Source: a virus
Strand: one strand, 5' to 3'
IMG/VR virus record: IMGVR_UViG_3300025430_001199
Coordinates: 35,020-99,019 of that record
Length of the DNA: 64,000 bases
In this document: positions 2,567 through 54,427 of the stretch, in pieces
Position numbering within the stretch: the first letter of the stretch is position 1
How the letters are laid out: every line of letters begins with the position of its first letter
Notes under the pieces: generated by a model
What the model was told of the DNA's origin: nothing
Seen by the model: only the letters and a program-made list of their open reading frames with translations
Database searches by the model: none
Translations under genes and position numbers: made by a program

Positions 2567-5218
2567 ATGACAATTTCGTATATTAACACCGGATCTGCCC
2601 CAAATGCGGGCGACGGTGACACATTAAGAACAGCATTTAATAAAATTAATGCCAATTTTGGCCTATTATACGATGGTGCTATTAATCAACTTGTTCAAAG
2701 TGATCAACCTCCGGTTCCTGCCAGTACAACAACACTATGGTATGATACTGTAAGTGGTAGAACCTATGTATATTACGATGGAACTTGGATCGATGCTAGT
2801 CCTAGCGAACAAAGTCAACAAAGTTCATTTATTACCACTGCTACCATTGGGCAATATGCCGGATATATTCAAGAAGTTGGCTTGTTTAATAGTATAACTG
2901 GCACAGGTTCTAACACAGTTACCAATGTTACACACTTAAATTTTGATACTGAATCTGCTTTTAGTGTAACTGATCAGGGCAATGGCGCGGTATTGATTGG
3001 CATGAACTCTACTTTTAAATACATCGAGATTGCCAATGCCAATACACTAACTGCGGTTGGGCTGGATACATTGACATTTGTTGCTGGTAACGGTATAGAA
3101 CTTGCTACCAACGATACTCCTGGACACCAAAGTATCACTATTACTTCTACCATTGCCCCTACAACTAGCACTGCTGGTTTCTTATATGACGACGGTGCTG
3201 GCGGATATCATTGGGTTGAACCAACACATAGTAGTTTAGAAAACGGTACTAGTACATTTACATTAAACGCCAACGGTAGTGTTACATTTAACAATGGAAC
3301 TGTACAAGATACAGCCTACACAATACCACAAGAGGGTAATGCTTATAATACCTTTTTGAGAATATTATTGGCAGATGGTATTGGCAATACCGCTACATTA
3401 TATTCAACTAACAATGTTTCCATTAATCCAGAAATGGGGGAAATAAATCTAACCTATTTAAGAGTGGGTTACAATAATGTTTCCGGACCTCCTACATCGA
3501 TAACATTAGCCACAAGTGGTACTAACTATCCTTCAACTGGAACCAATGTACAAACTACAGGCGGTAGCGGAACAGGCTTGACAGTTGATTTCCATGCTCC
3601 GGGAGGAAGTATTAACTCCTTGAGTATTAATAATCGAGGCGGTGGTTACTCTATTGGAGATGTTGTTTATATTAATAACTCTAACAGCGGAACCAGTGCT
3701 ACATTTGTGGTATCAACTGTGCTAAATGGTGGACCACACGGTAACATCGAGTTTGCTGATAGCACTTTCCAAACCACTGCTTATACTGGCACTGTGGCAT
3801 GGAACAACATCACTGGTACAGCCAACATCGTTACCACGGCATCACTAACAACTACTAACATATCTACATTTATTAATGACAAAGGTTATCTCACATATGC
3901 CAATGTTTATAGTTTGGGATATGTAACAACCAGTACTATTAATCAATATGTAAGTGCTAACTCATTAACTAACAATAATCATACTGCAACATTGACCACA
4001 GCGGGTAACTTTATATTACCAGGCGGCCTAGTTATAGATTACGGAACAACACCCACTATCACAGTTACAGCAACAAGCGGCGGCGGATTGATTGCCAGCG
4101 ATGTTTCGGCAGCGCCTGTAAAACTGTCAACATTTAATGGCGGCACTACCTATACATGGCAGTTCAATCCTGACGGTAGTATTACATGGCCCGATGGTAG
4201 CGTTCAGGCCAGCGCAACCACAGCCACAATAGCAGCAGGCACACTAACTAATCACATCAACTACGGAACTTACACACTAGCAGTGCTATCTACCGGTAGT
4301 GTTCAGTTTCCAGATGGCACTGTTCAAACCACAGCCTACACAGGTACAGGCATTACATCTGCCTTTGCTTCTAGTAGTTCTTACTCTGTAACAGCTTCTT
4401 ATGCTATATCAGCTACAACAGCAGTTAGCCTATTAAACAATGGTGTTAAGTTAAGACCGGTTAGTCCTCCACCATCATTGGTAGGTAATCCTGGAGATAC
4501 AATAGGTGATTTTGCCTATGATGGTTCAGATCTATACATTTGTTATGAAAACTATGTTCAAACTAACTATAATGTAACCACTGTTGATACAGGTACAAAT
4601 GTTTTCTACATTGATATTATTCAAGGCTCATATCCACAGCCACAAATAGGTTGGGAAATACACGATCCAATCGGTGGTCCGTTGATGACTATTACCAATG
4701 TGACCAGCGGTTTGTTTGGACCTTATAATACTCCATATTGGAGAGTTGGTGAATCAACTTATCTCAATAACTACATTCCTGGATTGACATACACACTGGT
4801 TAATCCAAGTGGGACCACTAATGTATGGGGCAAGGTCCCATTTACCACAGCGGCTAATACATCTACAGCAGTGACCAAGTTGTCGTCATTTGTCATTTCA
4901 GGAAATCCTGTAACATTTGACAATGTCTACGCAGAATGGTCAGGAGTTGGTAACAACTTGAAAGTAGGAGCAGTAACTGGAGTATTCACTGCTACATACA
5001 ACTTGTCAACATTCTATGCTGGTTCGATCAATGTTGTAAACGGAAACTCAGTTGCCTTTACAACAGCCGGAACAGTACTAGGCGGTACATCGCTAAATCC
5101 TGGAGATCGAGCAGAAATGGTATTAACAATACCTAATAGTCAAAAAGCCTATAGAATAACTGCTATAACAGGATCTTCTTACAATACAAACTTCATTAGC
5201 ATAGAACAACTAATGTAA
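2567..5218 (+). CDS. Long tail-fibre or tail-associated structural protein
   Basis: 883 aa, low-complexity and rich in Thr, Ser, Gly and Asn. Residues 7-31 hold the NTGSAPNAGDGDTLR-AFNKINANF type block found at the N terminus of fibre proteins in aquatic T4-like phages. Residues 57-74 carry a TLWYD...GRTYVYYDGTW module shared with the next gene and with the gene at 24354. Four degenerate copies of a W-F-G-FPDGTxQxTAYTG motif lie near residues 241, 396, 538 and 580. The C-terminal 230 residues are less repetitive. It leads a set of co-directional fibre genes. The receptor is unknown. Confidence 0.75.
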   Translation: MTISYINTGSAPNAGDGDTLRTAFNKINANFGLLYDGAINQLVQSDQPPVPASTTTLWYDTVSGRTYVYYDGTWIDASPSEQSQQSSFITTATIGQYAGYIQEVGLFNSITGTGSNTVTNVTHLNFDTESAFSVTDQGNGAVLIGMNSTFKYIEIANANTLTAVGLDTLTFVAGNGIELATNDTPGHQSITITSTIAPTTSTAGFLYDDGAGGYHWVEPTHSSLENGTSTFTLNANGSVTFNNGTVQDTAYTIPQEGNAYNTFLRILLADGIGNTATLYSTNNVSINPEMGEINLTYLRVGYNNVSGPPTSITLATSGTNYPSTGTNVQTTGGSGTGLTVDFHAPGGSINSLSINNRGGGYSIGDVVYINNSNSGTSATFVVSTVLNGGPHGNIEFADSTFQTTAYTGTVAWNNITGTANIVTTASLTTTNISTFINDKGYLTYANVYSLGYVTTSTINQYVSANSLTNNNHTATLTTAGNFILPGGLVIDYGTTPTITVTATSGGGLIASDVSAAPVKLSTFNGGTTYTWQFNPDGSITWPDGSVQASATTATIAAGTLTNHINYGTYTLAVLSTGSVQFPDGTVQTTAYTGTGITSAFASSSSYSVTASYAISATTAVSLLNNGVKLRPVSPPPSLVGNPGDTIGDFAYDGSDLYICYENYVQTNYNVTTVDTGTNVFYIDIIQGSYPQPQIGWEIHDPIGGPLMTITNVTSGLFGPYNTPYWRVGESTYLNNYIPGLTYTLVNPSGTTNVWGKVPFTTAANTSTAVTKLSSFVISGNPVTFDNVYAEWSGVGNNLKVGAVTGVFTATYNLSTFYAGSINVVNGNSVAFTTAGTVLGGTSLNPGDRAEMVLTIPNSQKAYRITAITGSSYNTNFISIEQLM

Positions 5219-5235
5219 TAACAGGAAACACAATA

Positions 5236-8200
5236 ATGTCATTACTACATTTTCCAAGCAACCCCACAGTTGGACAACAATACGCAAACGCAAATGGTAT
5301 AGTATATACCTGGGACGGGGTTAAATGGTTAGGTGCTGTTACAGGCAGCACTATCAGTACAATCGGTTACGGTACATACACCGTGTCTGTAAATACAGCA
5401 GGTAACTTTGTTATTCCCGCAGGTGCTATTATTGAACACGCAGACGGAAGTCCAGCAGAGTTTCCAGGTGGCACACTGATCAACGGTCCTTATAGATTTA
5501 CACTAACCACATCTGGTTCTATTACACTAAACGGTGAACTATTCCACAGTGGTGGTGTTATACAAAGCAGTACTCCTCCTGTTCCTGCAAGTACCAGTAC
5601 ACTATGGTATGATATCGGCAGTGGTAGAAGTTATGTTTACTACGACGGCACTTGGGTTGATGCGGCTCCTGAACCTTCTGTGCCCACTCACATTTCGGCG
5701 TTCACTAACGATCTAGGTTACATCACATCAACAAATACATTAGTCAACGGTAACCAATCAATAGCCCTAGACGGTAGTCAAGGTCTTCAATTGAATAATG
5801 TACAGTACATTTACGCAAATTCTACAGGAACAGCCATAGATATCTATACTGGTGGAACCAACTATAGTGAAGTATGGTTGTTTGATAACGGACCTGTACA
5901 GATAAACACTAACGGAGAAACACATTCTTGGTCATTTAATACAGATGGCAGTACATCATTACCCGGATCATTAAACTATCAAGTTCCGGGGTTAGGCGGT
6001 AGCGGACATTTTGATATCAACAGTTACTATCCTGTTAAAATCACCACAGGCGATAGCGTTGATGTTGCTTATAGTACTTGGACTTTTGGCTGGAATGGTA
6101 TTTTAGAGTTGCCAGGAAGTTTAACCGGTGATCCTGTAGTTATACAAGGTGCTCCTATTACAATAACTATTTCAGATAATAGCGGACTGGTTTGGGGTGG
6201 CGCATTAGGCACATATACAAGATTAAATGGCCAAACACCACCTAAGTGGGCACCTGCTAACTATAATCCCAGTAGTGATTCTTCTATCACATATGATGGC
6301 GGGTGGCAACTTAATAACCCAAACTTTTCACATCCTTTATATGTAAACACAGGCACACTAACTAATCCGTTAACTACATGGAATCCTGACACACAATTTG
6401 GTCTAGGTTCTGGTAACCCAGTAGGTACTTATACTTACAATACTTGGACATTTGGATTAACAACGAATAGTGGTAATGCCGGAATAACATTCCCCGATTC
6501 TTCTATACAATATACAGCCTGGACAGGAACCGTAGACTACAGCAATGTTACCAATGCTCCTGTGGTTGATAGTACAGGCACAACTGTATTCAATGTGGTC
6601 AGTGCTACTACTATCTATATCAACGGACAGCCAGTAAGCGGTGGTACTACATCTACACTGGTCAGCGGAACATATACATTTGCTGTTAGTTCAACTGGTT
6701 CTGTAACATTAAATGGTGTTTCTTTTAGTAGTCATGGAGCTCAGGGTACTACTGGTGCTCAAGGTACTGCTGGATCAAATGGCACCAATGGCGCACAAGG
6801 AACAACTGGTTCTACTGGTTCCCAAGGTACTGCTGGTAGTATTGGAACTAATGGCACACAAGGAACAACTGGAGCCCAAGGTACTGCTGGTAGTATTGGA
6901 ACTAATGGCACACAAGGAACAACTGGAGCCCAAGGTACTGCTGGAACTAACGGTGTACAAGGTGTACAAGGTATAAGTGGTTCTGCTAGCCTAAATAACT
7001 TGTCTACCAGTATAAGTTTTACTAATACAGGAGTTAATCCTCCTAGTTTCGTTACCACTAGCACTGGTGTTAAGATATCCTATTATCAACAAGAGTCCCC
7101 TACTACTGTTGACTACGCAACTGGCATTGAACCGGGTGGATTATGGACCAGTATTCCTAGTGCAACTAGCAACTATGCTTTCAAATGGTATGGCGGTACA
7201 AGTACTTTGGCTACTCTAACTGGTACTGGAACATTTATTACCAATACCTTAAATGTATCTAATCAGATAACAACTCCAGCAGGATCTAATGCTAACTTGG
7301 TATTGAATCCTGACGGACTAGCAGATGTGATTGTTACCACTAGTACACAGATACTAATGTATGCAACTAATACCAGTATATCAACCACAACTGGAGCATT
7401 GGTAGTTACTGGCGGCGTTGGCGTTGGTGGCAATGTTACAGCCAATAAGTTTGTAGGTGATGGATCAAGCCTAACCAATGTCACAGTGACACAACAGGCC
7501 AATATCGTTGGTGTACAGCCTAATGTGACCTTAGTCGCTGGCAACTACAGTTACCTGTTTGACAACACTGGCACCTTTACCATGCCCGTCGATGGTGACA
7601 TCGTAATGCCCGGTACTAATAGTATCCTATCAGTTAACGGCACAACACTTTTAGGCGGAGCCGCACAAGTTGTTGGATATTACTCAACATTGGGCATCAA
7701 GTATCCGGGCGGTAGTACACAGTATGGCATGACTTTACGACCAGCGGCTGATAACACCAATGCTATCACATTCTTAAATGCGGCTGGCACTAACATTGGT
7801 TCTATTACACAAACAACATCAACTGTCTTGTTCAACATGCCAAACCGTCCTGCGTTCCGTGTATACGGTGCTGGTACTACCAATAACCTAAGTACAACTG
7901 TTAACACTAATGGTATTCTAAACGGTAATAACTACGCAGTTGATTATCAACAGGGAACAGCATTAAATACATCAACTGGTGTGTTCACCGCTCCGCTCGC
8001 AGGACTATACAGCATACATCTTGTAGCCCGTGTGACCAGTAATTCAGCAGGACAGTCGCAAGTCACTGTTATCAAGAATAATGGTCTAGGCAGTCAGGCT
8101 AATCAAGCGATGTGGGAAACTGGCCCAAACCCTTCAGTCAATCACTTTGGCGTCAGCACCATAGCCAAACTGGCAGTAGGCGACACACTAGTAGCCAAGG

Positions 8201-9689: not shown

Positions 9690-12600
9690 ATGTCAGTATT
9701 AAACTTTCCAAGTAGCCCTTCAGTTGGACAACAATATACAGGTGATAATGAAGTAACTTACATCTTCGATGGTGTGAAATGGGAAGGTTATAGCCCCGTA
9801 CTATCCTCTGCTACAAATAGCATTAGCAACAATGGATACATTGTACAGGTCAATGGCAGCGGAAATCTTGTTATTCCTGTTGGTGCTACTATCATTGACG
9901 AAGCTGGCAATCCTGTTTTAACCAGTGGAGGCAGCGGTGCCCAAGGTACTACAGGTGCTCAAGGTATACACGGCGCTCAAGGCACCACCGGCTCAACAGG
10001 TGCTCAAGGAACTGCTGGATTCAACGGCAATACAGGTGTACAAGGTACTACAGGTGTTCAAGGAACTATTGGATCTACAGGAGCCCAAGGTACAACTGGA
10101 AATACTGGCGTACAAGGTGCTACTGGTATAGCAACTACCATTGTTGGCTCAGTGGCTAACAGCGCAAGTTTGCCCCCTAGCAGTACCCTTGGTTCTAGTT
10201 ATATTGATGAAGGTAATGGCGACTTATATGTATGGACTGGCACTGGATTTACCAATGTTGGTCAAATCGTAGGACCTAGCGGTGCTCAGGGTACTACAGG
10301 TGTTCAAGGTACAGCTGGTAGTAATGGCGCACAAGGAACTGCTGGCACTAATGGTCAGGGTGTGCCCACAGGCGGAACTGCTGGACAAGTTCTTATCAAG
10401 ATTGATAGTACAGATTATAATACACAATGGATTACACGCTCGTTTTCTGGATACGCTACAACTAGCACATTGGTCAACGGCGCTTTCACCGCCACATTAG
10501 ACACATACGGTAATTTTGTAGTTCCTGGTGTAATAACAAACAACAATCCAACTGGCACTGGGGTTGCTGTAGCCCCTAACTATCCCGGCCAAGGTGCGAT
10601 CCTTTCCAATTTTAGTGGTAATCAAGAATTCTTTGTTCAAGACGACGGCGCTTATGTACAGACTAGTGTCAACAATAGTGGAACCGTTTATAATCAATGG
10701 ATATTTGGCCTAGACGGTGTATTAAATCTGCCTAGCACCGTAGGTGATATTAAACGAGATGGTGTAAGCGTATTAGGTGGTGGCGGAGGTTCTGGTGGAC
10801 CAGTCAACCAGCTGACTAGTGGTACCGCAGTTGTAAGTTTAGATACCAACGGTACACTTAAGACTAGATCTCCAAACTTAGAAATCAAAGTAGGTGCTAG
10901 TACGGCTCCATACTGGGTAGCAGAGTACGGCGGACTCAGCGCCGCAGCCAGCGCATTGAGCGATTATGTCTATGGAACTGGCGCAGTCTACGACAGCAAA
11001 GGCAATCTATATATTATAGGTACAGCAACCGGTGGTGGTAGTACTGCCGATAGTTTAATGTTAAAGTATGATCCTGAAGGTAACTTGTTATGGCACAAGA
11101 CTTGGAAAGATCCTGTTAACGGCGGAAACTGCGGTGCTACCAATGTGGCTATTGCCATAGACAGTAACGATCGCATCTACTGGGTGGCCAATGATTGGAC
11201 TGCTGGTGGTATGTGGTGTGGTTATATGGACACAGACGGTAATCTTGGTCTTAATGGAACAGCACAGCAAGTACTAGGTGTTAACTATCTTAATCCCACA
11301 GATATCGCTGTTGATAACTTGGGTAACTTCTATCTTTCTGGATACAATAACGGCGGCAGCGGTTTTGGTGGTTATGGAATCCCGACTGTTGTCAAAGTCT
11401 CCAGCACTGGGACCGTGGCATGGAGTAGTACGGTAACTCCTATTGCTTCTGATTCTAGTACCAGTACAGGTATATATCGTGCGGTTACTGTTGATCCAGA
11501 CACAGGATCAGTATGGGCCATTGGTGATTATAATGACGGCGGTAGTCATTGGGCTATGTTGAGCAAATGGGATAGTTCAGGTGTAAATCAGTGGACCAAT
11601 AAACTAGTCACATCCTCGGGCGACATTGGCGATGCGGTAGTGTTTAATAGCGGCTATGTTTATACCGTGGTCAATGACGGCACTGAAAATCTTGTACGAG
11701 TTTCTAAATTAAATCCAGACGGAACACTGGTATGGGCTTCGGCATTAGCGCAAGGCACTGGTTCAAAAGGCTACGATCTAAGTTTTGATTTAAACGGTGA
11801 TGTTTATCTAACTGGTATATATTCTGGTCTTGGTTTATGGGTAACTAAGTTAAATCATACAACTGGCACTTTAGTATATTCTCGAACCTTAACTACTGTA
11901 GACGGAGCAGAGATACTCGATGGTCAAGGTGATCCTATAGTTGGACACAGAGCGGGTGACATCTATAGAGATAGAATAGCTGTAGTAGCTTCTACTCTGG
12001 ACAGTCTCACACAGCCAGGAACAAGCAATAACAGAACCATCTTGGCACAACTACCACTTGATGGCAGTATTGCTGGAACATTTAGCAATGTTACGCTGGC
12101 CGATATAACCAGTAGCATATCTGGTATTAGTTCAACTGGTACTTATACTATAACAACTTTGTCTTGGACTACAGGGACTTACGGAACAAGTATTGGCACA
12201 TTGAGTCAGTTGGGTTCTAGTGTTGTTACACTGCTTGGTCAGATGAGCAGTCAAGTACTTAATATCAGTACAGGCACAAGATCTTCAAATTGGAACTTTG
12301 GTTCTGATGGTGGATTGGTATTCCCAGATGGCACTATACAAAACTCTGCTTGGAACATTGGTATACAATCATCATTGGTAAATGGCGCTTACACATTATT
12401 CTTGGGTACTGATGGTACTATAAACTTACCTAACTCTACTACTGGCGAACCTTTAATCCAATCAACTGCTACGATACAAATACTTGCCAATACATCTTAC
12501 TTTACATTTGGAACAGATGGCACATTAACATTCCCAGATAATACTGTACAGCATACTGCCTATACTGGATCGACTCATTGGAGTGTTACTCCGTCAGTAG

Positions 12601-21507: not shown

Positions 21508-22329
21508 ATGGGACTAACGCTTAATTCAGGATTCTCAATAGGACCAGGTGTTACGCTTAATAGTGGTATCTCAGTACCGCTACCAACCGGACTTACCAGC
21601 AGTGATCCTAGTACAAGTGCTTATGCTATCAAACAAGCATATCCCTCTAGCCCAGATGGTTTATATTGGATACAAAACGATAATTTCAACGGTAAAGACC
21701 CAGTTCAAATCTATGCTGATATGACCACAGACGGTGGTGGTTGGACCCTGATTATGCAGAATATGAATCCAGACTGGAGTTACGACACTGCTTTACTACG
21801 AAACTCTACATCGCCGCCCAGTACACTAGGCAGTATCAACTATAGTATTATTGGTTGGGCAGATTATATCAAGCGTAGTGCCAGCGGCTTTGACTATATG
21901 TTAGAAGCAGTTTCTCGTAACAGTAATGGTGGTATCTTTACAGCCAACGAAGCCTATAGTTTCACAGGAGAAGTTGATCTAACTGCTTATGCCGCACAGG
22001 GATCCGGCCCGTACTTTGGTGGCACACAATATAACACTGACGAGTTCAATGCTGTGATTTCTACTGGTAACGGCTTCCGTCAAAACATCACACTAAAAAC
22101 CAAGTTTGGCACTTGGAACTACAACAACAACGGATTAGAAAAGCGGATGCCTTGGTACACTGGTAACAGTCCGGGTTTAGCAGGTGAAGCTATTTTTACT
22201 ACAACACACGATGATCCTGGATCGTGGTGGGGATCTTTAATGGACTATGACGCTAGTTTTAGTCCAGCACCGTGGCAAAATGACGCCGGAGTAGGTAGCC
22301 CAGGCATTATTTGGTACTGGGTGCGCTAA
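21508..22329 (+). CDS. Fibrinogen-like (FReD) domain tail protein
   Basis: 273 aa. After a short leader with GVTLNSG, as in the two LamG genes upstream, residues about 40-90 show the fibrinogen C-terminal domain signature: Y-P-S-S-P-D-G-L-Y-W-I, then PVQIYADMTTDGGGWTLI. A C-terminal NDAGVGSPGIIWYWV follows. In animals and bacteria this fold (ficolin and intelectin relatives) recognises glycans or acetylated sugars. The placement at the end of the fibre cluster supports an adhesin role. The stop overlaps the next start (TAATG). Confidence 0.7.
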   Translation: MGLTLNSGFSIGPGVTLNSGISVPLPTGLTSSDPSTSAYAIKQAYPSSPDGLYWIQNDNFNGKDPVQIYADMTTDGGGWTLIMQNMNPDWSYDTALLRNSTSPPSTLGSINYSIIGWADYIKRSASGFDYMLEAVSRNSNGGIFTANEAYSFTGEVDLTAYAAQGSGPYFGGTQYNTDEFNAVISTGNGFRQNITLKTKFGTWNYNNNGLEKRMPWYTGNSPGLAGEAIFTTTHDDPGSWWGSLMDYDASFSPAPWQNDAGVGSPGIIWYWVR

Positions 22330-22961
22330 TGCGGATACGCCCTGCTAACACTAGGGGTTTTCTAGATGTGGGTTGGATACAGAGCCGTAGAACATTTAGC
22401 AACAACAGTTATTGGGACCCAAAATACATGAACTGGGGTGACCTAAAAGTTATCAACGATGATCTACAACAACCCGGCAACATGGTTCCAAACCATGAAC
22501 ACCGCAACTTTGACATTCTAGGTTATCTTGTAGAAGGCGAGCTAGAGCATAAGGACAGCCTAGGCAATGTACAAAGAGCCCGTCCTGGACAAATCCAACA
22601 TATGTGGTGTGGAAAGTCAATATGGCATACAGAAGCATCAGTGGGCTCAGTGCCAGCAAGGTATCTACAACTATGGATTACACCTAAAGATAGCTTAAAA
22701 GACAGCAATCCTTACTATGAAATCATTGAAAAAGACCCCGATACCTATGGAATTATACCAGTAACACTACAGCAGGATATGACTATTCACGCAGGATGGA
22801 TAACAGGACTTCAAACACTAAATACAAACAATGCGTATTTGTATGTTGTGGAAGGCACAATAACAGGTAATGGCTTTATGTTAAACGAGGGAGATGGAGC
22901 AGAGTTAGATGCTGACTTAACAGCAGATTTTAATGCTCATATTTTATTGTTTCAGGAATAA
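22329..22961 (+). CDS. Pirin-family bicupin protein
   Basis: 210 aa when started at the ATG in the TAATG overlap at 22329; a longer TTG start would overlap the previous gene more and has no ribosome site. The N-terminal cupin has the full pirin metal site: H56 and H58 in N-H-E-H-R-N-F-D, then a GYLVEGELEHKDSLGN strand, then H100 and E102 in W-H-T-E. These are at nearly the same numbers as in human pirin. Pirins bind Fe(II); some act as quercetinases or redox regulators. Finding one inside a tail-fibre operon is odd. It may be a virion component or a moron enzyme; function is unknown. Confidence 0.85.
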   Translation: MRIRPANTRGFLDVGWIQSRRTFSNNSYWDPKYMNWGDLKVINDDLQQPGNMVPNHEHRNFDILGYLVEGELEHKDSLGNVQRARPGQIQHMWCGKSIWHTEASVGSVPARYLQLWITPKDSLKDSNPYYEIIEKDPDTYGIIPVTLQQDMTIHAGWITGLQTLNTNNAYLYVVEGTITGNGFMLNEGDGAELDADLTADFNAHILLFQE

Positions 22962-38945: not shown

Positions 38946-39718
38946 GAATAGCATATTACGGAAATAGTTTTGCCGAAAGCGGCCACGATATTTCTTGGAC
39001 AAAAGTTTTGGCAAGAAAAATGAACGCTGACTATTCGCAATCTTTTGCCAAGGGTGGTAGTTCTTTATTATATTCTTATCAACAGTTTTTAAAGAATTAC
39101 AAAAACTTTGACCTTAATGTTTTTGTAGTCACACATTGGGAAAACTATTCAAGAGAACTACCATTGATGCATAAGGATGGGACTACAAAAATGTTTCGTC
39201 CAAACAGCATACACAATGTAGAAGAAATGATTAGAATGAATAAAGACATACTAACCAATACTGCTATTGAAACTTTAGAATATCTAAGAGGTTGGTTTAT
39301 TGTAGCAGACGATGAATATATGATTCTAACATGGGAGTTGATTTTAAAACATGTTGAATCACTAGATCCTAAAGTTGTTTTTATTTCATCGGGTGATTTA
39401 AAAGAAAAAGATTTTATGTATAGCGATGAAAAAAGACGTAAACAGTTTAAGCGACATTTATCTCAATATCATCATATACAAACAAAGAGTCTGGGAATGG
39501 TCGAGCCTTGGAGTTATGACGGTAAGACCAAACTAAGAGAAAGTCCAGATACTATGGCTAATCACTTAACTGAAGAAACGGCTAAAATAGTTGCTGATTC
39601 AATTTATTCTTTGATTACCACAGGGGAAATGTTACCGGCACCTTCTCGAATCGAACACCAATATACATATGAACACTACTATCTCTCTGAAGATAGAGGA
39701 TACGTTTGGAGCAGTTAA
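38942..39718 (+). CDS. SGNH/GDSL-like protein
   Basis: 258 aa. Opens with IAYYGNSFAESG, a block I-like G-N-S/D-S motif with the nucleophile Ser. G-G-S-S-L then occupies the block II place, and a VFVVTHWENYSRE strand may replace block III. A catalytic D-x-x-H is not clear. The protein is probably an SGNH-fold hydrolase or a degenerate relative. It overlaps the HNH stop by 4 nt and precedes nrdB by 2 nt. Paralogous-looking genes lie at 59864 and 60697. Confidence 0.45.
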   Translation: MRIAYYGNSFAESGHDISWTKVLARKMNADYSQSFAKGGSSLLYSYQQFLKNYKNFDLNVFVVTHWENYSRELPLMHKDGTTKMFRPNSIHNVEEMIRMNKDILTNTAIETLEYLRGWFIVADDEYMILTWELILKHVESLDPKVVFISSGDLKEKDFMYSDEKRRKQFKRHLSQYHHIQTKSLGMVEPWSYDGKTKLRESPDTMANHLTEETAKIVADSIYSLITTGEMLPAPSRIEHQYTYEHYYLSEDRGYVWSS

Positions 39719-39720
39719 AA

Positions 39721-40815
39721 ATGAGTAAAGAACAATATAATTTATCAGTAGCACCTAACTACTTAAAACGACGAATGTTTTTAGATGGTGCTGTTACAGT
39801 ACAGAGATTTGAGGAATTCCGTCATCCTAAGATTGCTAAGTTTGAAGAACTAGCACGGGGATTCTTTTGGGTTCCTGAAGAAATCAGTCTTACCAAAGAC
39901 AAAATGGATCATAAGGATGCTAGTGATGCTGTTAAACATATCTTTACTAGCAATCTTCTAAGACAAACAGCCTTGGACAGTATTCAAGGTCGTGCACCGA
40001 ATCAAGTTTTTGGCCCAGTGGTATCTATCCCTGAGCTAGAAGCATTGATCAGCAACTGGAGCTTTTTTGAAACAAATATTCATTCAAAGAGCTACAGTCA
40101 CATTATTAGGAATGTTTATGGTGTACCCAAAGAAGAATTCAATAAAATCCATGATACACAAGAAATTGTGGGCATGGCTGCTAATATCGGTAGATACTAC
40201 GAAGCGTTACACGAACTCAACTGCCGCAAAGAATTGGGTGAAGAAATTTCAACAATGGAACATAAACGTGCTATCTGGTTGGCTTTGCAGGCCAGTTACG
40301 CACTCGAAGCACTGAGATTCATGGTCTCTTTTGCTACTAGTTTAGCCATGGTGGAAAATAAAATCTACATTGGCAATGGTAACATTATTAGTTTGATTTT
40401 ACAAGACGAATTATTACACGCAGAGTGGACTGCTTGGATTATTAATCAAACAGTCAAAGAAGATGCAGACTTTGCAGAACTGGAAAAAGAATGTGCCGAA
40501 GAAGTCTACGCCATGTACTTAGAAGTTATTGCAGAAGAAAAAGCATGGGCTGACTACTTGTTCAAAAAAGGTCCTGTGATCGGTCTTAATGCTACTATTC
40601 TAAAAGACTTTGTGGATTATACAGCATTTACACGACTGAAGGAAATAGGAATTAAATATTTAGAAGATCATCCTAAGAGTAATCCTGTTCCTTGGTTTAA
40701 TAAACACGTTAACATCAATAAAAAGCAAACAGCATTGCAAGAAAATGAATCTACTAACTATGTTATCGGAGTAATGAGCGATAATGTTAGTTACGACGAG
40801 TTGCCCGATCTATAA
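39721..40815 (+). CDS. nrdB: Ribonucleoside-diphosphate reductase class Ia, beta subunit
   Basis: 364 aa from ATG 39721. Ferritin-like di-metal radical subunit, partner of the alpha subunit. Ligands are seen at D86 (LDSIQGR), E117, H121, the E of LEALRF and E/H of DELLHAEW; the radical tyrosine is Y125 in SKSYSHIIRN. Between E117 and H121 there is one more residue (E-T-N-I-H) than in the E. coli E-x2-H motif. The C terminus (SYDELPDL) is the acidic alpha-binding tail. Separated from nrdA by the HNH and SGNH-like genes. Confidence 0.96.
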   Translation: MSKEQYNLSVAPNYLKRRMFLDGAVTVQRFEEFRHPKIAKFEELARGFFWVPEEISLTKDKMDHKDASDAVKHIFTSNLLRQTALDSIQGRAPNQVFGPVVSIPELEALISNWSFFETNIHSKSYSHIIRNVYGVPKEEFNKIHDTQEIVGMAANIGRYYEALHELNCRKELGEEISTMEHKRAIWLALQASYALEALRFMVSFATSLAMVENKIYIGNGNIISLILQDELLHAEWTAWIINQTVKEDADFAELEKECAEEVYAMYLEVIAEEKAWADYLFKKGPVIGLNATILKDFVDYTAFTRLKEIGIKYLEDHPKSNPVPWFNKHVNINKKQTALQENESTNYVIGVMSDNVSYDELPDL

Positions 40816-44748: not shown

Positions 44749-45153
44749 ATGAAAAAAGTCACCGCATCGATGTTTTTGATTTTTGCCAGCAGTCTATGCC
44801 TAGCACAGGAAGTTGCCACAGTGGTCAACGTTCAACCCCGTTATGTCACCGTTCAACAACGACAATGTGAACAGCGTGAAGTAGTTCGTGATAACAGCCG
44901 AGGTGACACCGCAATTGGTGCTATTGCCGGTGGTGCGATTGGCAGCACATTGGGTCACAATAGCAATGATCGACTAGTTGGCGGTATTGCTGGTGCTCTT
45001 ATTGGTGGTGCGATTGGTAACGAAGCAGGTCGCGACGGTGCTAGAGCAGAAGTGCGTGAAGTCTGCAGATATGTTCCGGTTACTATTCAGCAAGGTTCAA
45101 CTGTGACCTTTAACTATCGTGGACAGGTGTTTACACAATCATTTGGTCAATAA
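44749..45153 (+). CDS. Exported glycine-zipper outer-envelope protein
   Basis: 134 aa from the ATG with GGAG 7 nt upstream. Sec signal peptide (MKKVTASMFLIFASSLCLAQ), cut probably after the LA at residue 20; the cysteine lacks a proper lipobox. The mature protein has the glycine-zipper 2TM pattern AIGAIAGGAIGSTLG and GGIAGALIGGAIGNEAG, flanked by QRQCEQREVV and REVCRYVPV. This matches 17-kDa-antigen/SlyB-like envelope proteins of proteobacteria. In a phage it may alter envelope integrity or block superinfection; that is inference. Confidence 0.85.
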   Translation: MKKVTASMFLIFASSLCLAQEVATVVNVQPRYVTVQQRQCEQREVVRDNSRGDTAIGAIAGGAIGSTLGHNSNDRLVGGIAGALIGGAIGNEAGRDGARAEVREVCRYVPVTIQQGSTVTFNYRGQVFTQSFGQ

Positions 45154-45154
45154 T

Positions 45155-45349
45155 ATGAAAAAGTTTGAATATATTAACTGTCGATTTTTTAGATCATTAA
45201 AACTAAGATTAAAAAATAAAACATATACAGTATATCGAAATAAACCTAATCGTACTTGGCATTTTTATGTGTTTGATAATATAGGGAGTTATTATGAAGA
45301 AGATTATAACATCGATTTTAGTAGCGTTCACAGTTCTAGCAACATTTAA
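45155..45349 (+). CDS. Small basic protein, uncertain
   Basis: 64 aa, very basic and aromatic (KKFEYINCRFFRSLKLRLKN, RNKPNRTWHFYVF). Its ATG follows the previous stop by 1 nt. It overlaps the next, better supported gene by 56 nt and lacks a ribosome site, so it may be translated only by coupling or not at all. Confidence 0.4.
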   Translation: MKKFEYINCRFFRSLKLRLKNKTYTVYRNKPNRTWHFYVFDNIGSYYEEDYNIDFSSVHSSSNI

Positions 45350-45614
45350 TGCTAATGCTCACGAGTGGCATCACGGTGGTTACTATCGTGGCGGATGCCG
45401 AGGCTGTGGTTGGGTGCCATTGGCAGCAGGGGTTGTTATCGGTGCTGAATTAGCTCGTCCCTATCCCTACATTGTAAACGAACCAGTTTATGTTCAACCA
45501 CAACCGGTATTTGTTCTGCAGCCAACATTGCCTCCTCCACCATACGGATATCACTACGAGCAAATTTTTGATTCGCAGATCAATGCTCAAAGAATTGTAT
45601 TGGTGCCAAATTGA
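45294..45614 (+). CDS. Exported His/Tyr/Pro-rich protein
   Basis: 106 aa. Sec signal peptide (MKKIITSILVAFTVLATFNANA, cut after ANA), then H-E-W-H-H-G-G and G-C-R-G-C-G-W, a short hydrophobic AAGVVIGAELA and a Pro/Tyr/Gln-rich tail. GGGAG lies upstream of the ATG. Host proteobacteria have similar short periplasmic proteins. The histidines and cysteines could bind metal. Function unknown. Confidence 0.75.
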   Translation: MKKIITSILVAFTVLATFNANAHEWHHGGYYRGGCRGCGWVPLAAGVVIGAELARPYPYIVNEPVYVQPQPVFVLQPTLPPPPYGYHYEQIFDSQINAQRIVLVPN

Positions 45615-45796: not shown

Positions 45797-45996
45797 TGGA
45801 ATCGCATAAAAGAACATTAGCAAGAAGTATCACATATAGACTTAGTGCTTGGATGTTGACAATTTTGTTATCTTATATGTATACAGGCAATCTTTCAGAA
45901 TCAACTGGATTTAGTACTTTCCTACATTTGATTCTTTCATTAGATTATTATATTCATGAAAGAATTTGGATGAAGATTAGTTGGGGTAAGATTTGA
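45796..45996 (+). CDS. DUF2061 membrane protein
   Basis: 66 aa. Pattern RTLARSITYRLSAWMLTILL, Y-T-G-N, and a C-terminal YYIHERIWMKISWG, the hallmark ends of DUF2061 proteins, which are predicted membrane proteins of proteobacteria and some phages. Function unknown. Its stop codon forms the first hairpin (TGAGA/TCTCA, 45994-46007) of the tmRNA region. Confidence 0.8.
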   Translation: MESHKRTLARSITYRLSAWMLTILLSYMYTGNLSESTGFSTFLHLILSLDYYIHERIWMKISWGKI

Positions 45997-46076
45997 GAGT
46001 AATCTCAATAGTAAGACTGTATGAAGTTGACAGAAAAGGATTCTGGACGCGGGTTCGACTCCCGCCAGGTCCACCA

Positions 46077-46166
46077 TAAACACATGTGGGTTTAAGTCCC
46101 AAGTGGTAGTGTTATAGACACATAGCGGCACAGCCGATACCTTTCAGATTTGAGTGTGTTTATGAT
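46077..46166 (+). other. Intervening segment of permuted tmRNA
   Basis: Joins the encoded CCA to the 5' end of the coding part and should be removed during maturation. Its ends pair as TAAACACA (46077-46084) with TGTGTTTA (46155-46162), extending the acceptor stem into a long hairpin that host processing nucleases could cut. It contains a small T-loop-like hairpin, TGGG-TTTAAGT-CCCA. Confidence 0.8.
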
Positions 46167-46275
46167 GGGCCTGACCTGGTTTTCGACAGGGTCAAGAGTA
46201 ATGAAATGGACAGTCCGGCAATGTAGAAGCCGTTAGGATTGGGGTGACCCGATCGAAGACACGCAAAAAGTAATC

Positions 46276-46308
46276 GCAAACGATTCACAATATTCCATGG
46301 CCGCTTGA
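46276..46308 (+). other. tmRNA tag reading frame
   Basis: Resume codon GCA at 46276 preceded by AAAAAGTAATC, like the E. coli resume site. Encodes ANDSQYSMAA then TGA (46306-46308). The E. coli tag is ANDENYALAA; the A-N-D start and final A-A are kept, while the penultimate Leu is Met. Confidence 0.93.
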
Positions 46309-46348
46309 GCCAAGGTGAGGTAACTATACCTTATTACCCAAAATAGTA

Positions 46349-46376
46349 GAAAGGGCCTTGACGGGCCCTTTCTTTT
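46349..46376 (+). terminator. Intrinsic terminator of the tmRNA
   Basis: GAAAGGGCC (46349-46357) pairs perfectly with GGCCCTTTC (46364-46372), loop TTGACG, then TTTTT. Confidence 0.92.
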
Positions 46377-46413
46377 TGTGTATACTAACTTTACTTTAAC
46401 AAACAAGGTTCTT

Positions 46414-47115
46414 ATGAAAAAGACTCTTTTAGCAGTGATGTTTGGTATCGCACTATGCGGCGCAGTTAATGCCAAACCCGGCCAAGGTGGGGCTAGTCGT
46501 GGCAGTTTTAGTACTCCATCGAGTGTGCCACATAGTTCCCCTGGCCCTGTTCATCCTATCGCATCTCCTAGCCCACAGAAAGGTAGTTTTAGCGCCGCGC
46601 CCGCTCCTGGTCAAAAAGGTAGTTTTAGTGCCCCTGCACAGACTACTACTCGCACAACCACTACCGCAGTAAATCGAACTTATACAAGTCGCTATGTTAG
46701 CCCCGGTGGCTACTATGGTGGTTGGGGTTATGGTTATCACTATAACAACGGATTGATGACTGGACTAATTATTGGCAGTATGATGCATCCATATGGTACC
46801 GTAATGTACACAGGTCCCGGTGCGTACTACAATAATGCTGTTCTGTATCCCGATGGTCGAGTGGTTAATCAAAATGGTTATTTGGTAGGAACCTATGCCG
46901 GCGGACAGTTCAATCCCGTCCAAAACGGTCCCATGGTAGCGCAACCTGCTCCTGCTGATGCCGGTGCTCAACAACCAGTACAGCCACAACCACAACAACC
47001 ACAGGTTATCTATGTCGAGAAACCTGGACCTACAGCAGTGGAAGTCTTTGGCTATGCCATGGGTGGATTTTTGGTGGTAGTATTGTTAATTGCTTTATTT
47101 GGAATGGTGATTTAA
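46414..47115 (+). CDS. Exported repeat protein with C-terminal membrane helix
   Basis: 233 aa from ATG 46414; an upstream GTG at 46378 lies inside the terminator T-run. Sec signal peptide MKKTLLAVMFGIALCGAVNA. The mature part has three QKGSFS/RGSFS-type repeats near residues 30-65, a Gly/Tyr-rich stretch (GGYYGGWGYGYHY, GLIIGSMMHPYG) and a Pro/Gln linker. It ends in one membrane helix (GYAMGGFLVVVLLIALFGMV). Probably anchored in the inner membrane with a periplasmic domain. No family is named. Confidence 0.75.
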   Translation: MKKTLLAVMFGIALCGAVNAKPGQGGASRGSFSTPSSVPHSSPGPVHPIASPSPQKGSFSAAPAPGQKGSFSAPAQTTTRTTTTAVNRTYTSRYVSPGGYYGGWGYGYHYNNGLMTGLIIGSMMHPYGTVMYTGPGAYYNNAVLYPDGRVVNQNGYLVGTYAGGQFNPVQNGPMVAQPAPADAGAQQPVQPQPQQPQVIYVEKPGPTAVEVFGYAMGGFLVVVLLIALFGMVI

Positions 47116-47840: not shown

Positions 47841-48386
47841 ATGAAAACAATCGGCGATAAACTAGAACATTTCGTAGTTACAGGCGTTAAGCCAGGACAA
47901 CCAGAAGATGCTTTCTTCAACATTGATGAAACAAGTTTCCCAGGTAAGTGGAAGATCATTGCTTTCTATCCCAAGGATTTTACATTTGTATGCCCAACTG
48001 AAATTGTGGCCTATGACAAGTTGAATCAAGACTTCGAAGACCGCGATGCTGTATTGTTGACAGGTTCAACAGATAATGAGTTCTGTAAGATTGCTTGGCA
48101 AAAGAGCCACCCAGACTTGATCAATATCAAACACAATCAATTCGCTGATACACAGCGTGGTGAGTTGAGTTTGGCTGAACAACTTGGTGTATTCTTTGGT
48201 CCAGCAGGTGCGGCACTTCGCGCAACATTCATTGTTGATCCAGACAACACAATCCAACACGTTACCGTCAACAACTTGGATGTAGGTCGTAGCCCAGAAG
48301 AAACTTTGCGTATTCTTGACGCACTTCAAACTGGTGAACTTTGTGCTTGTAACCGTACCGTTGGTGGCGCAACTCTAGGAGCATAA
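47841..48386 (+). CDS. ahpC: Alkyl hydroperoxide reductase AhpC (2-Cys peroxiredoxin)
   Basis: 181 aa. Reduces H2O2, organic peroxides and peroxynitrite. Peroxidatic C51 lies in F-T-F-V-C-P-T-E; C168 and C170 in ELCACNR serve as resolving or shuttle cysteines. Length and C-terminal C-x-C match the AhpC that pairs with AhpD in mycobacteria and many beta- and gammaproteobacteria, not the AhpF-linked type. A strong ribosome site (AGGAGGA) suggests high expression. The ahpD gene follows after 1 nt. This is a rare gene in phages as far as I know. Confidence 0.95.
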   Translation: MKTIGDKLEHFVVTGVKPGQPEDAFFNIDETSFPGKWKIIAFYPKDFTFVCPTEIVAYDKLNQDFEDRDAVLLTGSTDNEFCKIAWQKSHPDLINIKHNQFADTQRGELSLAEQLGVFFGPAGAALRATFIVDPDNTIQHVTVNNLDVGRSPEETLRILDALQTGELCACNRTVGGATLGA

Positions 48387-48387
48387 T

Positions 48388-48894
48388 ATGGCATTCATTG
48401 ATTCAGTAAAAGGCGCATTGCCTGACTATGCTAAAGATGCTCGTTTGAACATTGATGCTGTATTGCTTCGTAGCACATTGGACAAGGATGTGGCTATGGG
48501 CTGTGCTGTAGCCGCTTTGGCTGCTACCGGCAACGGTAAGTTATTAGCTGTATTGTTAGCAGATGCTCCTGTATTTGCTGAGTCAGCAATGACTGCCGCA
48601 AGCATTATGGCAATGACAAACAGTTGGTACCCATATGTTGAAATGGCCGATGACGCAAACTTAACGGGTTTGCCTGCCCAACTGCGTATGAACGCCATCG
48701 CTACACACGGCGGCACAACTAAGAGCAATTTTGAAGCATTTAGTTTGGCCGCTAGTATTGTTGGAAAATGTGAGTTCTGCGTTAAAGCACACTACGAAAC
48801 ATTGAAGAAGGAAGGCTACTCTGTAGAAAACCTTCGTGACATTGGTCGTATTGCCGCAGTGATTAACAGCGTGGCTAAAGTATTGAATAGTTAA
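48388..48894 (+). CDS. ahpD: Alkylhydroperoxidase AhpD
   Basis: 168 aa. Reduces oxidised AhpC and has weak peroxidase activity. The catalytic C128-E-F-C131 with H135 (KCEFCVKAHYE) and upstream E116 match M. tuberculosis C130, C133, H137 and E118. It forms a tight two-gene operon with ahpC, so the phage brings both the peroxidase and its reductant. Electrons from dihydrolipoamide enzymes of the host would be needed. Confidence 0.95.
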   Translation: MAFIDSVKGALPDYAKDARLNIDAVLLRSTLDKDVAMGCAVAALAATGNGKLLAVLLADAPVFAESAMTAASIMAMTNSWYPYVEMADDANLTGLPAQLRMNAIATHGGTTKSNFEAFSLAASIVGKCEFCVKAHYETLKKEGYSVENLRDIGRIAAVINSVAKVLNS

Positions 48895-49571
48895 CCACTA
48901 TTCATATTACGATCGATTTCTGGATTATCAACTCTTAGATATCTCCAGTTATTAAAAAACTCTAGGGCCTTATCATCTGGTATTGGCCCTAGATTCATGA
49001 TTGCACATACTCTTTTATATTCTGATAAAAACCCATTATCGCCTGTTAACATTAAATCTAAATCTATCGGTTTAATATCTATATTACTCAATACCCAATC
49101 ATAGTCTTCTTTCTCTTGCGGACTAATTTCCAAATGCATATATCTATTCATAAAATGCCAGTTTTCTTCTGACACCTTAATATAATAGTGATGTTCATTT
49201 ATATTAGTATCAGTAAACCTAAATGAAGAATTACACGTTAGTTTCCAACCAGCAAAATGTTTACATATTACAAGGTTTTTATTTTCTTTTCCCCCGGGGA
49301 TATCGTAATCATTTAATATATTACCCCCGAATGGCAATAGATGTGCTTCTTGCCCCCAATTCTTAACTTGGGATTCTTTGAATATTAACCATTTCCATTT
49401 TTCTTCAAAAGTAGAATTAACAGGTAAACAACCGCAACTACCTTGTTTCCATGGCATCTTGACATTATCTGACAATGAAAATAATCTTGTCATAAAATTT
49501 CCGCCAGTTGCTGGTAAATATGTTATAATGTGTAAATCGGTAGTAGTTTGTCTTATTCGAGTTAAATTCAT
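48891..49571 (-). CDS. Putative P-loop sulfotransferase-like protein
   Basis: 226 aa on the minus strand, convergent with ahpD (4 nt overlap). The N terminus (LHIITYLPATGGNFMTRLFSLS) has a strand, a Gly-rich loop and a helix, as in the PAPS-binding loop of sulfotransferases, and resembles the starts of genes at 51256 and 52049. The rest shows no firm motif. It may modify a surface sugar or be another nucleotide-binding protein. No signal peptide. Confidence 0.4.
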   Translation of the reverse strand: MNLTRIRQTTTDLHIITYLPATGGNFMTRLFSLSDNVKMPWKQGSCGCLPVNSTFEEKWKWLIFKESQVKNWGQEAHLLPFGGNILNDYDIPGGKENKNLVICKHFAGWKLTCNSSFRFTDTNINEHHYYIKVSEENWHFMNRYMHLEISPQEKEDYDWVLSNIDIKPIDLDLMLTGDNGFLSEYKRVCAIMNLGPIPDDKALEFFNNWRYLRVDNPEIDRNMNSG

Positions 49572-49632: not shown

Positions 49633-49685
49633 TAGACTATATTAGTAGAAATGCTATATAATATACACATAGTCATTTAATGACT
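49633..49685 (+). promoter_or_regulatory. Porin promoter with inverted repeat at the transcription start
   Basis: TAGACT (49633-49638), 18 nt, TATAAT (49657-49662). Eight nt later comes the perfect palindrome AGTCATT-T-AATGACT (49671-49685). AAGGAA precedes the porin ATG. Confidence 0.65.
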
Positions 49686-49719: not shown

Positions 49720-50673
49720 ATGAAGAAATCTCTATTAGTGGCTGCTTTGTTCAGTCTAGCAGGTTTGGCAACTGCCGGCGACAATGTTGAAGTCTATGGC
49801 AAGTTGAATGAATATGTAAATAGTTACAAACTTGGTACTGCAACTGCGGTTACACAAGGTTACAACGATAGCAGCCGTTTCGGTGTCCGAGGATCTGAAG
49901 ATTTGGGCGCTGGTTTGAAAGCAACTTTTATCGTTGAAACCAATCTTAACGCAGAAAATCCAGGCACTGCAAGTCACTCAACAACTACTGCTACTCCAAC
50001 AGCATTAGGTGATCGTGAAAGTCGTGTTGGTCTACGCAATGACTATTTTTCTGTTGATTTAGGTCACGGTAAACAAGTTATCGGTCGCACACTAGATAAC
50101 TACGATACATTCGGTAACTTTGACTTGTCAGCAACCAATGTTGTTCACAGTACACAAGGCCAACGATTGAGCAATGCAGTTTTCTTGACTGCTACTCCAA
50201 TTGCTGGTGTTACTGCACGTTTTGAACAAGCAGAAAGCAATACTACTGCAAAAGCAACTCAAGCATATGGCGTTGAAGTTGCTAAGTTCGGTGCTAATTT
50301 GTCTGTAAACCGTTTGGACAACTATGCTGGTAATGCAACTACACAAGTTGCAGGCAAGTACACATTTGCTCCTACTGGTACTACTGTTCTTGCTTTGTAT
50401 AGTAAAGATACAGTTGCTAATGTCAAATCAGTCGGCGAAACTGTTGGTGTAACACAAGTTGTTCCAGGTGTTAAAGCATTGAGCGTTTTGGCTACTTATG
50501 GTAAGAAAGACGACAAGAGCGTTGCTAACAACGACTTGAAGGCTTTTGCACTAGGTGCTAACTACAGCTTGAGCAAACGTACTACATTGCAAGCACGTTA
50601 CATCAAGGAAGACTTCAAGGTCGCTACTGGTGATGTTCGTGAAGTTGCAGTTGGTATTCAACACAACTTCTAA
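49720..50673 (+). CDS. Gram-negative outer-membrane porin
   Basis: 317 aa. Sec signal peptide MKKSLLVAALFSLAGLATA, then NVEVYGKLNEYV, SSRFGVRGSEDLGAGLKATF and GDRESRVGLRNDYFSVDLG, the strand pattern of trimeric general porins of Burkholderiales. Alternating strands continue to the end, and the last residue is Phe (VGIQHNF), the signal recognised by the outer-membrane assembly machinery. Its own promoter, leader hairpin, ribosome site and terminator suggest strong expression. It might replace the host's porins, alter permeability or mask a phage receptor. Temperate phage PA-2 encodes a porin (Lc), so there is precedent. Confidence 0.93.
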   Translation: MKKSLLVAALFSLAGLATAGDNVEVYGKLNEYVNSYKLGTATAVTQGYNDSSRFGVRGSEDLGAGLKATFIVETNLNAENPGTASHSTTTATPTALGDRESRVGLRNDYFSVDLGHGKQVIGRTLDNYDTFGNFDLSATNVVHSTQGQRLSNAVFLTATPIAGVTARFEQAESNTTAKATQAYGVEVAKFGANLSVNRLDNYAGNATTQVAGKYTFAPTGTTVLALYSKDTVANVKSVGETVGVTQVVPGVKALSVLATYGKKDDKSVANNDLKAFALGANYSLSKRTTLQARYIKEDFKVATGDVREVAVGIQHNF

Positions 50674-50694: not shown

Positions 50695-50718
50695 AAGGCT
50701 ACTTAGGTAGCCTTTTTT
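50695..50718 (+). terminator. Intrinsic terminator of the porin gene
   Basis: AAGGCTAC (50695-50702) pairs with GTAGCCTT (50707-50714), loop TTAG, then a T-run. Confidence 0.92.
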
Positions 50719-50778: not shown

Positions 50779-51168
50779 ATGACAATGCATCTACATCATC
50801 CTTCTCTTAGTCTTAATGGTAAGAAAAAGGGTAAAGTCAAATTCCGTAATGCTGAAGAAGCACGTAAGGCTCGTGAACTTGAAGCAAGTTGGAAAGAACT
50901 AGAGAAAAAGTGGAATGTAGAAGCCGAGGACAAGAAACGTCGCCGTGCTATGGACGCCGAACCTTTGGCATATAACTTGTCTACTCCTGTTGGTCGTACC
51001 ACTAGTAACGATCTACCTAGCAGAGTAACCCCGGGCGGCTCAACTGCCCCCGTTCACAAAGTATACACCGGTACTAAAGTATTGGGTGTGACTATTGTTC
51101 ATAAGAGTTGCCTTCAGCCAGTGTTCAATCAACAGGAAGCAATTGATGCGGCAAACATGCGTAGGTAA
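50779..51168 (+). CDS. Conserved T4-like phage protein, unknown
   Basis: 129 aa. The start MHLHHPSLSLNGKKKGKVKF, the helical ARKARELEASWKELEKKW and the C-terminal VYTGTKVLGVTIVHKSCLQPVFN then A-x2-MRR are a conserved set I associate with small proteins of aquatic T4-like phages, function unknown. An internal ATG at 50785 is an alternative start. It has its own promoter. Confidence 0.7.
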   Translation: MTMHLHHPSLSLNGKKKGKVKFRNAEEARKARELEASWKELEKKWNVEAEDKKRRRAMDAEPLAYNLSTPVGRTTSNDLPSRVTPGGSTAPVHKVYTGTKVLGVTIVHKSCLQPVFNQQEAIDAANMRR

Positions 51169-52807: not shown

Positions 52808-53214
52808 TGTCAACAAAAATAACATTAATCACCCCTCCAGATTTTTATGAAACTGGAAATCTTAGTATCCTACTAGCACATTTAACTGATGAAGAACAAA
52901 CAGCAGTAAGTGATTGGTTGGGTAAACACGACCTAAATGAAAATATTAACCTATATTTTTATGATAATGAAAATAACTCAACTTGGTTTTTGTATGCGGC
53001 CAACCGATGCGAATATAAGTATATTAACATTGATTATGTAAATTATATTACACAATCGTTAAGCGGACATGTACTAGGCAAACCTGGATTTTATTATCGA
53101 ACAGATAATAGCGCATTGGCCGAAGTATATGCTCACATCAATACAAGACGTGTTGATACTGTAGAACAATTTTTAGAAAGTATTTTCAGTGACAAACAAA
53201 CTACAAACAACTAA
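52807..53214 (+). CDS. Small protein, unknown
   Basis: 135 aa, acidic and aromatic (ENINLYFYDNENNSTWFLY). It starts in a TAATG overlap and overlaps the clpX start by 26 nt. The LITPPDFYETGNLSILL start suggests an alpha/beta fold, but no family is recognised. Its co-transcription with clpX could hint at an adaptor; there is no direct evidence. Confidence 0.55.
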   Translation: MSTKITLITPPDFYETGNLSILLAHLTDEEQTAVSDWLGKHDLNENINLYFYDNENNSTWFLYAANRCEYKYINIDYVNYITQSLSGHVLGKPGFYYRTDNSALAEVYAHINTRRVDTVEQFLESIFSDKQTTNN

Positions 53215-54427
53215 TCATTGCTGTGACTTTTGTGGAAAAAGCAAAGAAGATGTTGAAAAACTCATTGTGGGCGAACATGCCGCTATATGTAATGACTGTA
53301 TTACATTATGCGTTGATATTCTAGAAGATGAAAAATTTAAGAAGGTAGCAGACAGTACCAAACGTTTAAACCCTGCCGCTATTAAAGATTTCCTTGACGA
53401 ATATGTTATTGGGCAAGATGATGCTAAGATTAGTCTAAGTGTAGCAGTTAGCCAGCACTTTAAACGTATCAATAATCCTAGCAAAGACGTACAGTTAGAA
53501 AAGACCAATATGTTATTACTAGGTCCCACAGGCTGTGGTAAAACCATGTTGGTGCGTAAGATTGCCGAGTATTTGGATTTACCATTTGCTATCTGCGATG
53601 CTACTAGCATTACTGAAGCAGGATATGTGGGTGATGATGTAGAAAGTATCCTACTGCGGTTGCTTAATGCCAGCGATGGAGATGTTGAAAAAGCCCAACG
53701 TGGCATTGTTTATATTGACGAAATTGACAAGATTGCCCGTAAAGGCGAAAGTACAAGCATTACTCGAGATGTCAGCGGGGAAGGCGTACAACAAGCATTA
53801 CTTAAAATGATCGAAGGTAGTGTTATGCGAGTTCCATATAATGGAAAACGTAAACATCCTGGCAGTGACATGCAAGAACTCGATACTCGAGGTATTCTGT
53901 TTATCTGTGGCGGAGCCTTTGTAGGTTTGGATAAACTTATTGAAAAACGTCTTCATAGTCGTAGTGTAGGATTTCACAGTGATATTAAATCTAAAGACGA
54001 TGCCACAGATTATTACAGTTTAACCACAACCAAAGACATTATTCAATACGGATTTATTCCTGAGTTTATCGGTCGTTTTGGCCTAATGTCCAATGTAAGC
54101 GAGTTAAGCGTTGAAGATTTGGTCCGTGTACTAAAAGAACCCAAGAACAGTTTGATTAAACAATATCAATACATGTTTGAACTGGATGGTATTGAACTAC
54201 AGTTTGAGGAATCTGCCCTAACACAGATTGCTGAACGAGCCAAAGAACTTAAAACCAATGCTCGTGGATTGAAAAACATTATTGAAAAGACCCTGTTGCC
54301 TTACCAGTTTGATGCTATTAATCTGGCCAATAGGGGATTATCTAAAATCGTTATTAACAAAGACACTATTGCTGGAACTAGTCCAGCCATAATGATATTT
54401 GACAACGAGCAGGTTAAAAGCCAGTAG
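53189..54427 (+). CDS. clpX: ClpX, ATP-dependent unfoldase of the ClpXP protease
   Basis: 412 aa, close to full bacterial length (424 in E. coli), GTG start. Zinc-binding domain with C12/C15 and C34/C37; Walker A GPTGCGKT (112-119); GYVG pore loop (145-148); Walker B IVYIDE (173-178); R-K-H pore loop (221-223); ClpP-docking tripeptide V-G-F (260-262) where E. coli has I-G-F; sensor-2 NARG (357-360). All functional parts are kept, so it should unfold substrates and dock to the host ClpP; no clpP lies in this window. With the tmRNA 7 kb upstream it may redirect or support degradation of tagged proteins. Confidence 0.97.

Follow-up and report, generated by a model that had tools for sequence, protein, structure and literature searches.

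A phage-only clade of PorB/Omp32-type porins in large T4-related phages, with a possible role in remodeling the infected cell surface

The stretch of viral DNA analyzed here (the window; 64,000 nucleotides) comes from a 99-kb IMG/VR record and carries a porin gene between nrdB and a gene for a ClpX homolog (Table 1). The product matches the Pfam family Porin_4 (PF13609) with 91.6 bits (curated cut-off 27), over positions 2 to 302 of the 310-position profile. By inspection, the N-terminus MKKSLLVAALFSLAGLATA is a signal peptide and the last residue is Phe, which bears out the original prediction of a full-length porin with both features. A profile of the phage porins could be aligned end to end with PorB of N. 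gonorrhoeae (4aui; PorB 1-327 against profile 1-302, E 1.8e-16) and partially with Omp32 and BpsOmp38. The AlphaFold2 model of the window porin, based on an alignment of 9 sequences only, had a pLDDT of 45 and was too poor for loop measurement; Omp32 was the top-ranked Foldseek match of this poor model. Because of the quality of the model, the 16-stranded fold is assigned by sequence homology instead. The likeness to the trimeric porins, neisserial PorB and Omp32/BpsOmp38, consists of the full-length profile match, the signal peptide, the terminal Phe, and the strand order by homology, and judged by its sequence, the window porin is an outer-membrane porin of the PorB/Omp32 type.

Table 1. Features of the porin locus and its neighborhood (window coordinates)
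Feature	Position	Strand	Basis or remark
nrdB, left-hand neighborhood marker	39706-40815	+	sequence match
tmRNA, Betaproteobacteria type	45964-46399	+	RF01850, 95.3 bits (gathering 84), match 45964-46375
AhpC-like peroxiredoxin, own leader hairpin	47841-48386	+	sequence match
AhpD-like alkylhydroperoxidase	48388-48894	+	sequence match
226-aa ORF between AhpD and porin	48891-49571	-	no family match
Predicted sigma70-type promoter TAGACT-18-TATAAT	49633-49662	+	sequence
5'-end mRNA hairpin AGTCATTTAATGACT	49671-49685	+	directly 3' of -10
Shine-Dalgarno AAGGAA	49706-49711	+	sequence
Porin gene	49720-50673	+	ATG to TAA, 317 aa, signal peptide about 1-19, C-terminal Phe
Intrinsic terminator stem-loop, then T run	50695-50714	+	sequence
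129-aa conserved phage protein (phrog_27048, p129), right-hand slot marker	50779-51168	+	profile match
ClpX homolog with zinc finger, right-hand neighborhood marker	53189-54427	+	full length, NCBIfam ClpX 538 bits

The porin had been proposed to form its own regulated unit, and at the sequence level this holds, with promoter, leader hairpin, Shine-Dalgarno sequence, and terminator all predicted. The hairpin starts 9 bases past the -10 element and therefore lies at or near the 5' end of the mRNA. In the related viral contig L004, the -10 element is conserved, the -35 element is weaker, and the leader hairpin is AGCCATAAACTGGCT, in which a two-sided exchange of T-A for C-G keeps the stem pair. 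Hairpins scoring at least 8 were found in the leaders of five of eight porin genes (mean 0.4 and maximum 2 in 200 shuffle sets) and in 16 of 37 leaders of the small barrel that relatives encode (1.5 in shuffles). The same score was reached by 18% of the other genes at these loci, the window AhpC being among the hairpin-bearing genes, so that the leader device is not barrel specific. The single-sequence folding energies of the window porin leader were only modestly better than those of shuffles. A 5' hairpin such as that of ompA stabilizes mRNA, and by analogy the porin hairpin probably prolongs the life of its transcript.

The identical porin locus was found in viral contigs L002, L003, and L005 from three other metagenome records, with identity spanning 10 to 21 kb. 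L004 encodes a porin 86% identical to that of the window and shares its gene order, the nrdA, nrdB, glutaredoxin, glycine-zipper, and tmRNA regions following each other in the same way; elsewhere the two differ, the place of AhpC/AhpD being occupied in L004 by a rubrerythrin and a GIY-YIG-like ORF. Comparison of the two porins gave a dN of 0.076 and a dS of 0.58 by NG86 (dN/dS of about 0.13), and 0.074 and 0.70 by YN00 (dN/dS of 0.11), values by which the porin is, on sequence grounds, under purifying selection between these two phages. All scans together detected a porin of this kind in 21 viral contigs, and two of the porin-bearing contigs, of 286 kb and 364 kb, both contain a T4-type Gp23 major capsid gene. 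Neither Gp23 nor Terminase_6N had a match in the window's own contig, which is therefore a fragment; its gene products in the window include a phage-type tail fiber, DNA ligase, ribonucleotide reductase, and exonuclease. The description of the source as a large T4-like phage thus rests on its relatives, where it is supported by Gp23, and not on the contig itself.

Assembly chimerism had been named beforehand as what could overturn the finding, and a gene family of bacterial origin, matched here by Pfam but by no PHROG, might suggest chimerism or bacterial contamination. Chimerism was not seen. The same junctions recur in four contigs from different metagenome records, a diverged syntenic copy is present in L004, the phage clade described below has twelve members, and porins lie within the 286-kb and 364-kb contigs together with Gp23. 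We consider chimerism or host contamination ruled out by these observations, its probability being negligible, and positions 49720 to 50673 almost certainly encode a phage-borne porin.

Among 399 Burkholderiales genomes, and in plasmids, the closest full-length bacterial porins were at most 35 to 37% identical to the window porin. The sister phage porin L105 had no closer relative over its full length, either in the 399 Burkholderiales genomes or among 369 sampled from the class. When 12 phage porins were placed in a tree with 68 bacterial ones, taken from Burkholderiales genomes and plasmids, the phage sequences formed one clade (support of 100/97; 100/98 in an earlier tree with 8 phage porins). 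An alignment that combined phage and bacterial porins proved too divergent for scanning the collection. The phage porins are also shorter (289 to 317 aa, compared with 305 to 448 and a median near 349 for the bacterial ones; p 9e-6). Because the bacterial sequences came from a sample of genomes and were chosen for their resemblance to the phage queries, including closer hosts could reduce both this difference and the clade, and such a host relative may exist outside the sample. The shorter length would fit trimmed outer loops.

The Burkholderiales kinship originally suggested for the porin is thus confirmed for the type of its nearest bacterial relatives, but the phylogeny that had been proposed as a check sets the phage porins apart from the 68 bacterial ones. 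Unlike PorB and Omp32/BpsOmp38, the window porin is phage encoded, belongs to its own clade, is shorter, and is at most about 37% identical. Recent capture from a host was rejected for the sampled genomes, as the best bacterial identity of 35 to 37% lies below the level of well above 50% taken to indicate it. The distinct clade and the low bacterial identity argue for a long-standing phage lineage rather than recent host capture. Among cultured phages (50,697 phage records), no match was found for the window porin, the sister porin, or the small barrel.

The permuted-tmRNA model RF04321 overlaps the phage tmRNA listed in Table 1 with 105 bits, and ARAGORN gave its tag as ANDSQYSMAA. Together, the affinities of the tmRNA and the porin point to Burkholderiales as the likely hosts. 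DNA related to the window's tmRNA is present in L004.

The porin is not the one-off that it first appeared to be: it belongs to a phage-specific clade, and many relatives have an 8-stranded barrel instead. This protein of 149 to 153 aa was first picked up by weak Porin_4 matches. AlphaFold2 modeled it with 8 strands at a pLDDT of 87, and its best solved match was NspA, followed by OmpA, OmpX, and Ail. The scan for it gave 115 matching stretches, from which 80 loci were kept (at least 80 viral loci; L059 17833-18279 is an example). No small barrel was found in 200 Burkholderiales genomes, searched without a positive control. It is usually found in the porin's neighborhood, with nrdB/glutaredoxin on one side and the 129-aa protein or ClpX on the other, and AhpC/AhpD or rubrerythrin are often adjacent. 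It is comparable to lambda Lom and the 8-stranded barrels Ail, OmpX, and NspA, but in contrast to Lom and its kin, it occurs in large T4-related phages in which no integrase was detected and has no counterpart in the cultured phage records.

Porin and small barrel were not found together in any one stretch, most contigs being fragments and the numbers small. G000 and the pieces of the 286-kb contig have the porin only, and in the latter it is located elsewhere, far from p129. Among 19 stretches selected by nrdB and spanning to p129 or ClpX, some of them near-duplicates, 3 had the porin, 5 the small barrel, and 11 neither, which indicates that the barrel is dispensable, variable cargo. The co-absence is suggestive and weakly tested because most contigs are fragments, and we do not claim strict mutual exclusion.

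Several other genes of this neighborhood deserve mention. The ClpX homolog is conserved in many relatives, and such a phage-borne unfoldase may redirect host ClpP. Peroxide-defense cargo is swapped at one spot, with AhpC and AhpD in the window (47841-48894) and rubrerythrin in L004 (8372-8836). Small signal-peptide proteins, one with a glycine zipper, are clustered near the porin (44755-45153, 45294-45614, and 46378-47115) and possibly form an envelope cassette. The 286-kb porin-bearing relative encodes a CsgF-like curli secretion protein (L267 8195-8635, minus strand; PF10614, 55 bits). Near the porin of L260 are genes for a Band_7 protein, a fatty acid desaturase, and a ketoacyl synthase (3997-4791, 5248-6012, and 10562-11533), for which membrane-lipid remodeling is a possible function. 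By eye, we noticed an adenosylhomocysteinase-like ORF in L004 (4488-5822), with similar ORFs at other nrdB-neighborhood loci, and runs of radical-SAM-like and sugar-nucleotide-epimerase-like ORFs in L006 (7971-16394) and L007 (3767-8725), which lie in G000 upstream of the window, suggesting glycan or peptide modification. A Pirin-family protein (22311-22961) adjoins the tail genes of the window.

We propose that, during infection, the porin's own sigma70-type promoter would give rise to a short mRNA carrying the hairpin at its 5' end, that the host Sec pathway would export the product, as the signal peptide suggests, and that the host BAM machinery would fold it into the outer membrane, as suggested by signal peptide and terminal Phe together. 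The porin is very probably located in the outer membrane during infection. There it would alter the surface of the infected cell by replacing, diluting, or masking the receptor porin of the phage itself or of its competitors, and this change of receptor could lead to superinfection exclusion during a long infection. That exclusion or surface remodeling is the porin's main role has, in our estimate, a little less than an even chance.

The choice between surface remodeling and solute uptake depends largely on the small barrel. Homology to PorB/Omp32-group porins, both general and anion-selective, would suit a porin that makes the outer membrane more permeable to nutrients (phosphate or organic acids, for instance) for a large, demanding genome, and its neighbors are genes of nucleotide and redox metabolism. 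The metabolic cargo of the neighborhood (ribonucleotide reductase, AhpC/AhpD, and rubrerythrin) fits nutrition or stress support and counts against remodeling, and oligotrophic freshwater would be expected to reward nutrient uptake. However, host porins are already abundant, and NspA/OmpX-like barrels of 8 strands do not form a wide channel. We prefer surface remodeling because it is this kind of barrel, with a similar leader, that usually occupies the neighborhood in relatives. Should the two barrels have a common purpose, altering the cell surface is more likely to be that purpose than solute influx, though they need not share a function. As the porin's main role, influx is the chief rival and seems rather unlikely to us, if still worth serious consideration.

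An extra barrel might also serve envelope upkeep or timing, by stabilizing the outer membrane or by competing for BAM and so delaying lysis until the giant genome is packaged. Although the neighbors vary between phages, small signal-peptide proteins, with a glycine zipper and others, are clustered nearby, and one relative has fatty acid desaturase, ketosynthase, and Band_7 genes within a few kilobases of the porin; we regard this explanation as improbable. The known phage-encoded outer-membrane proteins of this sort would suggest a lysogenic-conversion moron, like the PA-2 Lc porin or lambda Lom. The relatives, however, have a T4-type Gp23, and a search for tyrosine integrases (PF00589) found none in 12 records of the group, which included G000, five records of at least 190 kb, and several fragments, while all controls were positive. 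A moron is accordingly very improbable. Surface remodeling remains the reading that we favor. In its wider form, in which large T4-related freshwater phages have a slot for an outer-membrane barrel, either a 16-stranded porin or an 8-stranded barrel, expressed from a hairpin-capped mRNA and swapping the surface of the infected cell, it is put forward tentatively, as somewhat more doubtful than plausible.

Outer-membrane proteins encoded by phages are known chiefly from lysogenic conversion by temperate phages, with PA-2 Lc and lambda Lom as examples. PA-2 is temperate, and its Lc porin, of the NmpC type, is an enterobacterial near-copy. A phage-borne porin as such therefore has a precedent, and the likeness to Lc is that of a general porin on a phage; unlike Lc, the porins described here form a phage-only clade, and no integrase was found. 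In open-licence full texts, we found no report of a phage-encoded porin in a virulent phage; a KdgM porin is mentioned as part of an alginate pathway and is not of the kind studied here (PMC12285232). What is new is a phage-only porin clade that resides in large T4-related phages, in which no integrase was detected, and that alternates with a widespread small barrel.

This group of giant viruses seems to rebuild the outer surface of its host regularly in the course of infection. If true, this would amount to a systematic receptor-exchange strategy in virulent phages, and the porin clade and the small-barrel family, in large T4-related phages with no detected integrase, would show that remodeling of the occupied cell's outer membrane is not confined to temperate phages but extends to lytic ones. 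Because the genes can be cloned, they make it possible to test in freshwater phages whether receptor replacement brings about superinfection exclusion. They are also a warning that a porin in a virus contig is not automatically host contamination.
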